A stretch of 64,000 nucleotides of DNA, taken from the NCBI GenBank assembly GCA_949318235.1, contig OX439137.1, positions 5,040,641 through 5,104,640 of the forward strand, given 5' to 3'. How positions within the stretch are numbered: the first letter of the stretch is position 1; every line of letters starts with the position of its first letter. A program made the translations under genes and the position numbers. The notes beneath the pieces are model-generated. The model was not told the origin of the DNA, did not search any database, and saw nothing but the letters and a program-made list of their open reading frames with translations. Below are positions 5,004 to 61,071 of this stretch, piece by piece. The stretch is from Ecdyonurus torrentis (lineage: Eukaryota > Arthropoda > Insecta > Ephemeroptera > Heptageniidae).

Positions 5004-5067
5004 ATGGATTGGAGTTTTGTTATTTGGTTTATATTTTGGATTTCAGGCTATGATGCACAGTATGTTG
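5004..5067 (+). CDS. A1 exon 1: signal peptide
   Basis: ATG opens MDWSFVIWFIFWISGYDAQY, a hydrophobic secretion signal. The exon ends in phase 1 before GTAAGT. The coding bases are identical to A2 exon 1. Confidence 0.85.
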
Positions 5068-58100: not shown

Positions 58101-61071
58101 TAATGCATGAACATTATGGAGGAGATCAACTATGCACTATGTACCGTAGAGACGTTTTATTATAGACAAAAAGGCGCTAGGCCCACAGCTGCATATTAAA
58201 ACATGTTTCTTAATTTATTCTACAATTTAAAACACTTCAAAAGCACAATTTTTATGCCCATTTTGGGTTAAATGATTTAAATATTTATTTTAAATGAACA
58301 CTGCTATATATGCAACTAAATAAAGAATAATATTATTTAAATCTCTCTTTTTATTTATTTAAGTAATTTAAAAGAATAAATTGGAGTAGGATTATTATAA
58401 AAAGAGTATATTTTTGGTAAAAATGTGAGGTTGGAATTTTTAAATATATTTAAAAATTAATAATCAGTACACTTTATGTCTCGGAAAAAATTATTGTTTG
58501 TATGAAACATTATTTGTTTTTAATACTATTATTTCTGGTTACTAAATTTTTGTAATAATTTTTACAATATTTTAATTATTATTTTGTTGTATTTTTCAAA
58601 GACCAGTATTGAAATCAATATACCTGAATTTTCTTATTGTGCTTGTAAACATTTGTTATTATAACTTGTAAGAAAAAAAAAACTTTCCAAATATTTATTT
58701 TATTTTCTTATCCATTGGATTACGGAAACTTTGTCAATATTATCTCCCTAGCTTATAACTTACAAAATTAATGATTTATACAAATATTGAAATTTCATAA
58801 TGGTGCTATTTTTACCAGATGATAATTTCACAACAAATTTGCAAGATGGATTATTGAATGTAAACTTTACTAATGCCACATACCATTATGCATGTGAAAA
58901 TGGATATAAGCTTATAGGACAGTCAGAGCTTATTTGTAATGCTACATATGGAAAACTAATTGGAAGACAACCGATATGTTTAGGTAAGCTGAAATAATAT
59001 AATTCAAAATAATAAGATGCATAATATGCGGGTGATTTAAAAGAAATAGTAATTTATTGATTTGCATACTGATAAAGTAAAAGAGTATTAATTTTTGTCT
59101 GGTATTTGGCACCAGTAGAAGGAATAAAATATTGAGAGAGAGAGAGAGAAATAGAGAGAGAGAGCTTCAGACCTGACATTAATAAATTCAATTTCACTGT
59201 GTTAAACGTACCGCTTATCATTGCAAAATACCAAGAATAAAAAAAGCTCTGATATATATATATATATATATATATATATAGTGTCAAAATGTATGAAGTG
59301 AAATTATCAAGAGCTTTCCAAACGCTCCATCTACATAGGGTTTACTGTGTCAGATGGAACCTTTGGTGTGCTCGTAATAATTTCACTTGTTACAATTTAC
59401 CACGAGATAGAGACGATATTAAAGATAAGATAATTAAACACACAAATAATTTTCACTGCCCTCTATTTGCATAAACAAAAAAAATGTCATAGAGAGTGAA
59501 ATTTTTAATATATTTTAATGTGAATATCAATAAAAATAAATGCGCACAAATATTGCACTTTTTTTAGTGGATATATTTTTTTAAATCTGTAATTACTTTA
59601 AGCTGTATCAAATGTGTAATATTTTTTTACATAAGTTTGTTCTGTAAAGTATAGTGAGGCTCAATAACATTGATTGGCTGCCCAATAAAATTTTAGACAC
59701 ATATTCATTGGTTGGTCTTGTTTTTTTGAGCTGATAAAAGTGAATCACATATTGAGCGTTATACATTTTTTTTTTGTGAAGTTTCTTTCATTCTTATCAG
59801 TTGTAAAGTTCTAAACAATGGAATAACAATGATCAACTATACATATAAACGTAGTTAACAGGTAATGATATCATGATCAGATGTTCTCAACAAAGGAAAA
59901 TTTTCGAAGCTGGCTTAAGAGTTGTTTGTAGTTTATAAAAGCTCGTTCTATAAACTACACACAAATATTGAGCCAGCTTCAAAAATGTTCTTTTGTTAAA
60001 AACAGCTGTATATGACGACGTTACCTGTTCACTACGTTTATACATATGGTCGATCATTGTTATTTCTTCTTTTAGAAGTTTGAACTTGATAAAAATGAAA
60101 GAAACTCACAAAAAAAAAGTTCCAATAACGAAACATGCGACTCACTTTTATCGGCTCAAAAAACAAAATCAACCAATGAATGTGTCTTATTTTGTTGGTC
60201 AGCCAATCACTGTAAATGAGCTTCACTATACTTTACAGAACAAGCTAGAATGAACTGTATAAGAAAATGCCAATCAATGATTTTTAACAATTTTCCGGCA
60301 CAAATGCGAGTTGATGCATAACATTATATAAGAATGAGATAGGCATTTCTCCACCCTTTAGTTATTTGAAGAAGAAAAGAAAGAAAGAAAGAAAATTACC
60401 TATATATACCCCTACTCTTTCTCTCTGGTTCATGTTACACATCGCCTCATAAACGATTCACTTCATGTCTTGTATAATTTGGCCACCATAACATTTTGAT
60501 AAAGTTAGATTAGTGAAGTTTTAAAAATTATTAAAGAATAGAAAGGTATGAAAAGACACCTCGTTTTTTGTTATACATCAACTCGCATTGGTACACTTTA
60601 AAAATCGTCTAACAGTTTCTGTAAACTGATTGCGGTAATTTTATTTCTGAATAGCGTCTTTATAAACTTTTTTTCGTCTCTATAGTCCCATATTGATGAA
60701 TATTATTTGTTTCAGAAATTAATTCCAATAATAATAATAATGAAGGAGAGAGCATATCAATAACTGTGATTCTATGCATCCTGATTGGAATTTTGGGAGT
60801 CATCTTAATGTCTCTGGTGTTTTATCTCTTGTACAAGCGTTACAAAAGTCGTTCTTCTGATAGCAGAACATCCGGAAATGCATTAGAAATGCAAGAGAAC
60901 TATTACGACTACCCTGTGTTTGTACCTAGAAATAGTGCAGGACAAGAAGAACAACAAGAACAAGAAGAACCTACTTATGATTATGCCGTGTTTCCAGAAA
61001 ACTTCCAGAATAATGAAACAGTTGAACCTAGTGAATGTGAAGTAAAAAATGATCTTTATCAATCATCATGA
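52075..61071 (+). CDS. Receptor gene B2: B-type ectodomain with alpha tail (8 exons, 526 aa)
   Basis: Join 52075-52135, 54231-54431, 55124-55300, 55963-56217, 56417-56581, 57706-57906, 58819-58983, 60716-61071; 1581 bases in frame, all introns phase 1. Signal peptide, then three units of 7-Cys plus 3-Cys modules as in B1 (21-146, 147-286, 287-408), an Asn-rich stem, a membrane helix (about 424-445) and an alpha tail with YDYPVF and YDYAVF. B1 and B2 mirror the A1/A2 pairing: same ectodomain, different tail. The gene is shorter than B1 mainly because it lacks the long repeat tracts. Function is inferred as for the other genes. Confidence 0.86.
52136..54230. other. B2 intron 1
   Basis: Aligns in blocks with B1 intron 1 (AAATGCCACTTAATTAGTAC, CTGCGGGATT, GATCGTGCAG region) but lacks its foldback elements and minisatellite, so it gives the empty sites. 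A poly-A run of about 19 bases lies near 53184-53203. No exon seen. Confidence 0.65.
54231..54431 (+). CDS. B2 exon 2: cysteine module 1
   Basis: 67 codons, seven Cys, CTCKASC-x6-C, GTW, NIC; phase 1-1. Confidence 0.86.
54798..54985 (-). mobile_element. Probable LINE 3'-end fragment, B2 intron 2
   Basis: AAAT/AAT repeats followed by GCACATCGTCAAAAGAGTTG and GGAGATCAAAAAAGGCAAAG. Absent at the B1 position. Family not recognised. Confidence 0.4.
55124..55300 (+). CDS. B2 exon 3: CCP-like module 1
   Basis: 59 codons; Cys in YSCSEGYKLSG, STC and PKC. Confidence 0.86.
55963..56217 (+). CDS. B2 exon 4: cysteine module 2
   Basis: 85 codons from acceptor GTTATAG. Seven Cys, CTCKSNC-x6-C, GSW, DPC. 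Ten N-terminal codons more than the B1 form. Confidence 0.85.
56417..56581 (+). CDS. B2 exon 5: CCP-like module 2
   Basis: 55 codons, three Cys; nearly identical to B1 exon 5. Confidence 0.84.
56618..56651. repeat. Poly-T run, B2 intron 5
   Basis: About 33 T; not present in B1. Confidence 0.9.
56842..57137. mobile_element. Foldback MITE M2, copy 4, B2 intron 5
   Basis: Arms intact around two ATGACGTCA-type sites; outer termini partly eroded (TAGAACACCTTGAA; ATCGCCTTTAA). B1 intron 5 lacks it. Confidence 0.85.
57706..57906 (+). CDS. B2 exon 6: cysteine module 3
   Basis: 67 codons, seven Cys, CSCLWNC-x6-C, GKW, HC. Five replacements and one silent change against B1. Confidence 0.86.
57907..58818. 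other. B2 intron 6
   Basis: AT-rich; lacks the foldback element and (TCTG)n of B1 intron 6. Nothing else recognised. Confidence 0.6.
58819..58983 (+). CDS. B2 exon 7: CCP-like module 3
   Basis: 55 codons, acceptor TTTACCAG; Cys in YAC, LIC, PIC, with NGYKLIG. The in-frame ATG at 58799 region is intronic. Confidence 0.84.
59130..59282. other. Degenerate copy of the exon 6 acceptor region, B2 intron 7
   Basis: TTTGGCACCAGTAGAAGGAA, ATTCAATTTCACTG, CAAAATACCAAGAATAAAAAA resemble the sequence leading into and starting B exon 6 (39995-40125). This looks like a broken fourth cysteine module, ended by a TA tract. Nothing readable follows. Confidence 0.55.
59635..60245. mobile_element. Foldback element with TTGTTCTGTAAAGTATAGTG ends, B2 intron 7
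   Basis: Two arms of about 290 bases pair along nearly their whole length (TGTTCTGTAAAGTATAGTGA to CTATACTTTACAGAACA). The loop lies around AAAGCTCGTTCTATA. The frames at 59993-60253 fall inside it and are not genes. Confidence 0.9.
60300..60592. mobile_element. Small MITE with AATGCGAGTTGATG ends, B2 intron 7
   Basis: CAAATGCGAGTTGATGCATA pairs with TATACATCAACTCGCATTGG; about 290 bases. Confidence 0.7.
60716..61071 (+). CDS. B2 exon 8: stem, membrane helix and alpha tail
   Basis: Acceptor TTTCAG, phase 1, stop TGA. Asn-rich stem, helix SITVILCILIGILGVILMSL, basic YKRYKSR, then NYYDYPVFVPRN and TYDYAVFPENFQNN. It has a Gln/Glu-rich spacer longer than in A2. Confidence 0.88.

Follow-up and report, generated by a model that had tools for sequence, protein, structure and literature searches.

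Paired receptors, in which matched ectodomains are joined to different tails in tandem clusters, are represented in vertebrates by the KIR, CEACAM and CD300 families. Fusion genes in KIR are reported to arise by unequal crossing-over, and activating KIR to combine a short tail with a charged transmembrane residue (PMC5290243); the paired CEACAM receptors are reported to undergo concerted evolution, with a co-opted transmembrane exon in ruminant CEACAM32 (PMC7042247), and CD300 pairs have also been described (PMC12447643). Among invertebrates, fester and FcoR of Botryllus are multigene sushi receptors with gene pairs in one locus and, in some tails, an immunoreceptor tyrosine-based inhibitory motif (ITIM) or a Y-x-x-I/L/V motif (PMC12065747); vCRL1 of Ciona is a polymorphic complement-receptor-like CCP product proposed as an individuality marker (PMC5465252); and Alr of Hydractinia is a large clustered allorecognition family with 41 members (PMC11999971). 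The 503-Mb genome of Ecdyonurus torrentis (Ephemeroptera) contains, in a stretch of 64,000 nucleotides (contig OX439137.1; G000:C21:5040641-5104640; hereafter the window), part of an array of predicted receptors for which no description was found among the titles and abstract openings listed in literature searches. Judging from the genomic sequence, we consider it rather probable that this is a tandem array of CCP-type receptors in which genes with one tail (beta) were made from genes with another (alpha) by exon loss and fusion, giving paired recognition receptors.

Four complete receptor genes were predicted from the sequence, all on the plus strand, in the order A-beta (A1, 5004-13611, 561 amino acids), A-alpha (A2, 19601-29700, 452 amino acids), B-beta (B1, 32021-47467, 615 amino acids) and B-alpha (B2, 52075-61071, 516 amino acids), from the ATG in the signal-peptide exon of A1 (5004) to the final base of the stop codon of B2 (61071). 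The models comprise 30 exons (7, 7, 8 and 8, respectively) and every one is open and complete; all internal junctions are phase 1 with GT...AG boundaries, and the introns measure 199-4727 bases. The layout is that of a type I membrane protein, with a short signal-peptide exon first and the transmembrane segment and entire cytoplasmic tail in a single last exon. The ectodomains are 88% identical at the amino acid level between A1 and A2 and 85% between B1 and B2, versus 35-37% between A and B (E about 1e-32 to 1e-37), and the beta tails of A1 and B1 are 92% identical (E 2e-140), the alpha tails of A2 and B2 55% (E 2e-27). The first-pass annotation had proposed these four genes in this order, with ectodomains shared within A and within B and each tail shared across them; the open, phase-1, GT-AG models and the identities and E-values bear this out. 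Its "two ectodomain types" stand as two matched pairs, but the types are themselves related, D2, D4 and D5 being mutual best matches between A and B (the match of D3 is less clear); the A genes have an extra module D1, and the B genes an extra pair D6-D7. Candidate phase-1 exons in the window number 195 on the plus strand versus 24 on the minus strand, and clusters of profile matches number 13 of D-type (six or seven cysteines) and 10 of C-type (three cysteines) on the plus strand versus none on the minus strand, a comparison of which only the minus-strand result is independent because the profiles derive from plus-strand exons.

The layout is like that of vertebrate paired receptors in its matched ectodomains, different tails and tandem clustering, but KIR, CEACAM and CD300 are Ig-type, whereas the modules here are CCP-type, both tails have tyrosines and the window genes have uncharged transmembrane segments; two usual signs of such receptors, the immunoreceptor tyrosine-based activation motif (ITAM) and a charged transmembrane residue, are missing from the predicted genes checked. 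With fester and FcoR the array has in common multigene sushi-domain receptors, paired genes in one locus and tails with tyrosine motifs. However, fester and FcoR are described as having Ig domains, fester as having three transmembrane segments and the partners as differing in architecture, whereas in the array the same ectodomain bears different tails, and Pfam gave no Ig domain at E<=1 in the ectodomains of A1 and B1. The V-set and I-set Ig domains of Alr are likewise not found in these two ectodomains. With no Ig domain in its A1 and B1 ectodomains as predicted, the array is neither fester/FcoR nor Alr. The description of Ciona vCRL1 is of a single polymorphic gene and its splice variants, with no mention of tail pairing in the passages concerned.

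The array extends past the window on both sides. In 264 kb, consisting of the window and 100 kb on each side, module profiles (E<=0.01) identified at least 14 plus-strand genes, one of them broken; three N stretches totaling 12,700 bases lie in this region, and genes may be missed there. There are 42 D-type and 27 C-type module exons, of which the plus strand has 31 and 21, respectively, the weakest accepted call (E 0.004) being on the minus strand and weak calls being kept out of the trees. Beta-type tails are found outside the window in U0, U1, U2 and U4 upstream and in Z downstream on the minus strand, and alpha-type tails in U3, U5', U6 and U7 upstream and in gene C downstream. With those of the window, this makes 7 tails of beta type and at least 7 of alpha type that are intact, not counting some other weak alpha-like frames (E 3e-5 to 0.004), most of which are on the minus strand. 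The usual upstream architecture is D1-D2-C-tail. The alpha tail of U5 (-34982 to -34637 in window coordinates) is split over two overlapping frames, and U5 is a probable pseudogene.

The two tails appear to differ in age. Synonymous divergence (Ks) between ectodomains is 0.041 for A1/A2, 0.102 for B1/B2 and about 1.2 for A versus B, and between tails it is 0.080 for beta (A1/B1) versus 0.869 for alpha (A2/B2; p 1e-12). A1 and B1 differ at 11 of 145 synonymous sites in the beta tail versus 100 of 166 in the ectodomains (p 3e-24), and A2 and B2 at 37 of 71 in the alpha tail versus 100 of 168 in the ectodomains, which is no difference (p 0.32). At synonymous sites, the predicted alpha tail is as old as the split between A and B, but the beta tail is not. 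Across the array, the full beta tails of A1, B1, U1 and Z give Ks of 0.08-0.21 in all six pairs, and the corresponding ectodomains 1.27-1.52 (A1-B1, A1-U1 and B1-U1, Z being without an assigned ectodomain), while alpha tails give 0.64-2.14 in all 21 pairs (tail values computed without the broken U5 and the diverged U0, ectodomain values without U5); the beta-type tail of U2 is older and diverged (Ks 0.32-0.46). Among the best candidates scored in searches of the whole genome, the A1 beta tail had eight matches, in six exons, all within the array at C21 4.957-5.196 Mb, and the A2 alpha tail had ten, of which three lie outside the array (G000:C15:30912481-30912753; G000:C21:772115-772432 and 854288-854605). 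Alpha is probably the old tail and beta mostly recent; in its full form, beta probably came to older alpha receptors recently and locally. The two alpha relatives on C21 lie 82 kb apart and have equal match scores.

Probable traces of tail replacement are found in A1 and U2. A1 is homologous to A2 until 12402 and to B1 from 12445, the tail-exchange junction (12403..12444, plus strand) lying between the end of the one homology and the start of the other. Position 12402 falls inside a copy of the alpha exon (A1 12289-12402 versus A2 29310-29421, 83% nucleotide identity), so that the last intron of A1 contains, upstream of the beta exon, an alpha-exon stump of about 85 bp (12317..12402, plus strand) that retains its acceptor and 27 codons in frame before a stop, with 17 of 81 bases differing. 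It is thus probable that A1 used to be an alpha gene. The beta block of A1 (12445..17411, plus strand), comprising the end of the last intron, the beta exon and the 3' flank, has piecewise homology to 46463-51613. In B1, homology to B2 ends at 42127 and the beta block starts at 46463; of the stretch in between (42128..46462, plus strand), only a foldback element has copies elsewhere in the window. U2 parallels U3 into the last intron and resumes after the alpha stop, about 900 bases that include the alpha exon of U3 (about -50186 to -49783 in window coordinates) being absent from U2; farther on, U2 becomes U1-like and bears a shortened beta exon. Decayed alpha pieces are present downstream of the beta exon in U1 (-80277) and U2 (-62889 and -62537). 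Together, the young, array-restricted beta tail, the A1 stump and the alpha loss in U2 suggest that beta probably replaced alpha recently, through deletion-fusion; the earlier proposal of construction by segment shuffling is also supported.

The process would begin with tandem duplication of an alpha receptor, after which the alpha exon would be lost, entirely or partly, and the gene fused to the last intron or 3' end of a neighboring beta gene, while local conversion would keep part of both ectodomains alike. As every internal junction is phase 1, breakage within the last intron would yield an in-frame receptor. What the sequence shows directly is the end states, the stump, the missing segment and the relative synonymous divergence; we infer the order of these events, that they involved deletion and not conversion, and every function.

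Mixed pairs recur in the array. On a tree of D2 and the following C module from 14 genes (Z excluded, U0 and U5 flagged as long branches), beta and alpha genes are neighbors as A1/A2 (97/95), B1/B2 (100/99), U4/U5' (88/87) and U1 and U2 with U3 (98/98). Matched beta/alpha ectodomains thus occur at four places, two of these groups being upstream of the window, and the earlier claim that like ectodomains carry two different tails within one cluster holds there as well. The U2/U3 ectodomains have Ks 0.06 and Ka (the nonsynonymous counterpart) 0.11; those of U4/U5' are older (Ks 0.41, Ka 0.27) and just 57% identical. The tail label changes five times on the tree of 14 ectodomains versus a mean of 4.8 when shuffled (384 of 500 shuffles needed no more), so that kinship among the ectodomains does not predict the type of tail.

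The beta tails of A1 and B1 are long, with the motifs YATP, YDYVV, YLTP, YDYI, YEN and HYELV, and the alpha tails of A2 and B2 are short, with YDYPVF, YDYAVF and LYQ; Y.YP[VI]F is retained in all seven alpha tails, and YEN in all seven beta tails. Two ITIM-pattern sites are present in each of the A1 and B1 beta tails (shuffle P 0.016-0.017). The pattern occurs in 5 of 7 beta tails and also in 2 of 7 alpha tails, but there within the segment read as transmembrane. No match between alpha and beta tails of the window genes was listed at E<=10; the beta profile touches the alpha tail of U7 at E 0.0013, and distant kinship of the two tails is therefore possible. Ectodomains change faster than tails in these models: nonsynonymous to synonymous changes are 42.5:8.5 in the A and 63:20 in the B ectodomain versus 10:11 in beta (p 0.003 and 0.016), with the beta tail subject to purifying selection (Ka 0.020, Ks 0.080, p 0.002). 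Ka significantly exceeds Ks only for A D1-D3 (p 0.038, uncorrected, one of seven sets). Recruitment by tail motifs is considered here from SH2 specificities only. The members of a pair would bind the same ligand but signal via tyrosine motifs that differ: YxxP, YxN and ITIM-pattern sites in beta, with a probably restraining output, and YxYP[VI]F and LYQ in alpha, with another. The most likely use would be in blood or epithelial cells, for telling self from non-self or for the recognition of pathogens; these functions are putative, and we infer both the immune or allorecognition use and the opposed signaling.

Several observations weigh against recent tail replacement and paired recognition. 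The gene models and the reading are predictions from genomic sequence. U4 (Ks about 1 to the others) and U0 carry old tails of beta type, and the same two have no ITIM pattern; conversion of beta tails between genes could also give them a youthful look. No alpha stump was found in B1. The ITAM pattern (YxxL/I-x6-12-YxxL/I) occurs in 0 of 14 tails, and none of the four window genes has a charged residue in its transmembrane segment, for which reason opposed signaling stays putative. The chance that four chosen sister pairs would all be mixed is 0.079, and strong support on the tree is limited to 3 of 11 inner branches, five being open and the deeper order tentative. Ka is not significantly above Ks over the whole A or B ectodomain, nor for U2/U3 (p 0.24) or U1/U3 (p 0.11). 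Noncoding divergence of the beta block is greater than that of A1/A2 outside their homogenised part (p 3e-5), so that one duplication does not date all parts alike.

Ancient beta/alpha pairs might instead have been duplicated as blocks and their paired ectodomains homogenised by gene conversion, without tail replacement, as the beta-then-alpha order recurs (A, B, U2/U3, and U4 then U5' past the broken U5), and paired CEACAM receptors are reported to evolve in this way (PMC7042247). A1 and A2 are indeed partly homogenised, with noncoding identity of 0.9425 (3861 sites) within 4600-9249 versus 0.880 (3313 sites) outside (p 7e-21) and 1 synonymous difference in 134 sites versus 7.5 in 77 outside (p 0.0017), a likeness that looks like gene conversion. 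Block duplication is nonetheless unlikely: it predicts equal tail ages, against the lower Ks of beta (0.08 versus 0.87 for alpha), although conversion of beta could mimic youth, and it leaves the alpha stump of A1 and the missing alpha segment of U2 unexplained. Somewhat less probable still is an origin of alpha and beta as alternative last exons of one ancestral gene, of which the copies kept one; the decayed alpha pieces downstream of the U1 and U2 beta exons and the retained acceptor and 27 open codons of the A1 stump would fit this, but the alpha pieces are upstream of beta in A1 and downstream in U1 and U2, each gene of the window starts with a signal exon and ends with a stop of its own, and full beta tails are far younger than alpha.

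CCP modules are found in many non-immune receptors, and with receptor function here being putative, the array could simply be a tandem family of ordinary receptors (adhesion, scavenger or complement-control) whose tails have drifted and whose pairing is functionless. Retention of the tail motifs over large divergence (in every alpha and every beta tail) and the purifying selection on beta argue against drift, and we rank this explanation as low as block duplication. Joining of two haplotypes end to end in the assembly, suggested by the arrangement of the pairs as adjacent direct repeats, is highly improbable, as the members bear different tails and differ by 9-15% in alignable noncoding DNA, and the pattern recurs elsewhere on the 26.5-Mb contig.

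The outside modules look like CCP (sushi) derivatives, and the earlier identification of CCP-type receptors was upheld by a Pfam Sushi match, PDB matches and a predicted CCP fold. Of 45 Sushi matches genome-wide, one is in the window (B2 D3), and canonical CCP genes are on other contigs. Among PDB sequences, the B1 ectodomain matched 10 at E<=1 (best E 0.0013), all from complement proteins apart from a viral complement-control protein. The seven-cysteine module has a predicted fold that matches CCP (model of B1 D6), and the three-cysteine module, which stands after it, is CCP by sequence, in a form without the first CCP cysteine. Profile-profile comparison of the two modules gave nothing; their common origin therefore rests on the Pfam, PDB and fold matches. 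With hand-set boundaries, cysteines in the window number seven in 11 of 11 D2/D4/D6-type exons (gene C included), three in 10 of 10 D3/D5/D7 exons and six in both D1 exons, and no module has the canonical four. The A D3 acceptors are uncertain (8223 and 23579 hand-set versus 8151 and 23495 automatic), the automatic choice adding one cysteine to give four in both exons. On the plus strand of the 264 kb, there are six cysteines in 10 of 10 D1-type exons, seven in 20 of 21 D2-type exons (one truncated pick has five) and three in 19 of 21 C-type exons (two A D3 picks have four); minus-strand exons vary. Unlike the 4 + 4 cysteines of CR1, CD55 and factor H, the array has 7 + 3 over two exons, which would imply a disulfide between neighboring modules. 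A fuller proposal, that the array repeatedly makes paired receptors by loss of the alpha tail exon and fusion to a spreading, array-restricted beta, so that one ectodomain lineage after another would acquire both signaling forms, and does so on an undescribed two-exon CCP unit with an inter-module disulfide, is tentative and slightly more apt to fail than to stand. Protein searches with the A1 protein, a four-protein alignment and the beta tail gave 2019, 3893 and 264 shared-word candidates, none with E<=1, in a database that is mostly microbial.

In A1, the signal-peptide exon (5004..5067; all exons are on the plus strand) is followed by D1 (7263..7445, six cysteines), D2 (7672..7869, a seven-cysteine CCP variant), D3 (8223..8393, three-cysteine CCP, 8151 possible as acceptor), D4 (8931..9146, seven cysteines), D5 (10778..10942, three cysteines) and the beta exon (12923..13611), which encodes the transmembrane segment and long tail, with YEN as YENM. 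The A2 exons are the signal-peptide exon (19601..19664), D1 (22091..22273), D2 (22637..22834), D3 (23579..23749, 23495 possible), D4 (24548..24763), D5 (28009..28173) and the alpha exon (29339..29700), with the transmembrane segment and short tail. B1 consists of the signal-peptide exon (32021..32081), D2 (36751..36951, seven cysteines), D3 (37756..37932, three-cysteine CCP), D4 (38660..38884, seven cysteines, acceptor uncertain with 38651 and 38669 possible), D5 (39087..39251, three cysteines), D6 (40080..40280, seven cysteines, the domain used for structure prediction), D7 (41923..42087, three cysteines) and the beta exon (46815..47467), and B2 of the signal-peptide exon (52075..52135), D2 (54231..54431), D3 (55124..55300), D4 (55993..56217, acceptor uncertain with 56002 possible), D5 (56417..56581), D6 (57706..57906), D7 (58819..58983) and the alpha exon (60716..61071). 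Gene C, a candidate fifth gene, begins at 62753 with a signal-peptide exon (62753..62840, donor GT at 62841) and a first D-type exon with seven cysteines (63358..63546); more modules and an alpha tail at 65562-72509, past the window, may belong to gene C or to a second gene. Farther downstream, on the minus strand, L009-L018 (91234-163873 in window coordinates) form another run of D and C modules, which is more divergent than the first and comes with one beta tail and two short tail-like frames in which DNDLYVAANY occurs.

An interspersed repeat of about 340 bp occurs in the window in both orientations, several copies being in receptor introns and intergenic (4267-4603, 17067-17414, 24083-24388, 25384-25579, 26352-26693, 32337-32682, 38217-38563, 51269-51615 and 61410-61645), along with a foldback element that matches itself in both orientations (11390-11709, 25703-26014, 45889-46133, 56844-57125 and 63623-63947). 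There are very long, near-perfect tetranucleotide repeats at 5162-6119, 19759-20448, 41279-41633 and 43346-44672, the first two at equivalent positions in A1 and A2, and the first intron of B1 contains a 1.3-kb tandem repeat with a 17-base unit (also 9 and 26) at 35222-36515. The window scan gave zero tRNA and zero Rfam matches. At the left edge (1-80), where the adjoining 5 kb upstream read N, the open stretch ATTSIRPTRLFHTALGTLTIILIAGVS is a possible exon, with no PDB match at E<=10.

The origin of paired receptors is usually argued from older vertebrate clusters. In this array A1 still has a stump of the tail that was probably replaced, and U2 shows a clean loss of it, which makes both the mechanism and its repetition directly testable in relatives. 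A tail confined to one exon, together with junctions that are all phase 1, would provide a rule explaining in-frame tail exchange, and the array would constitute a candidate recognition locus in a receptor family of non-vertebrate type.

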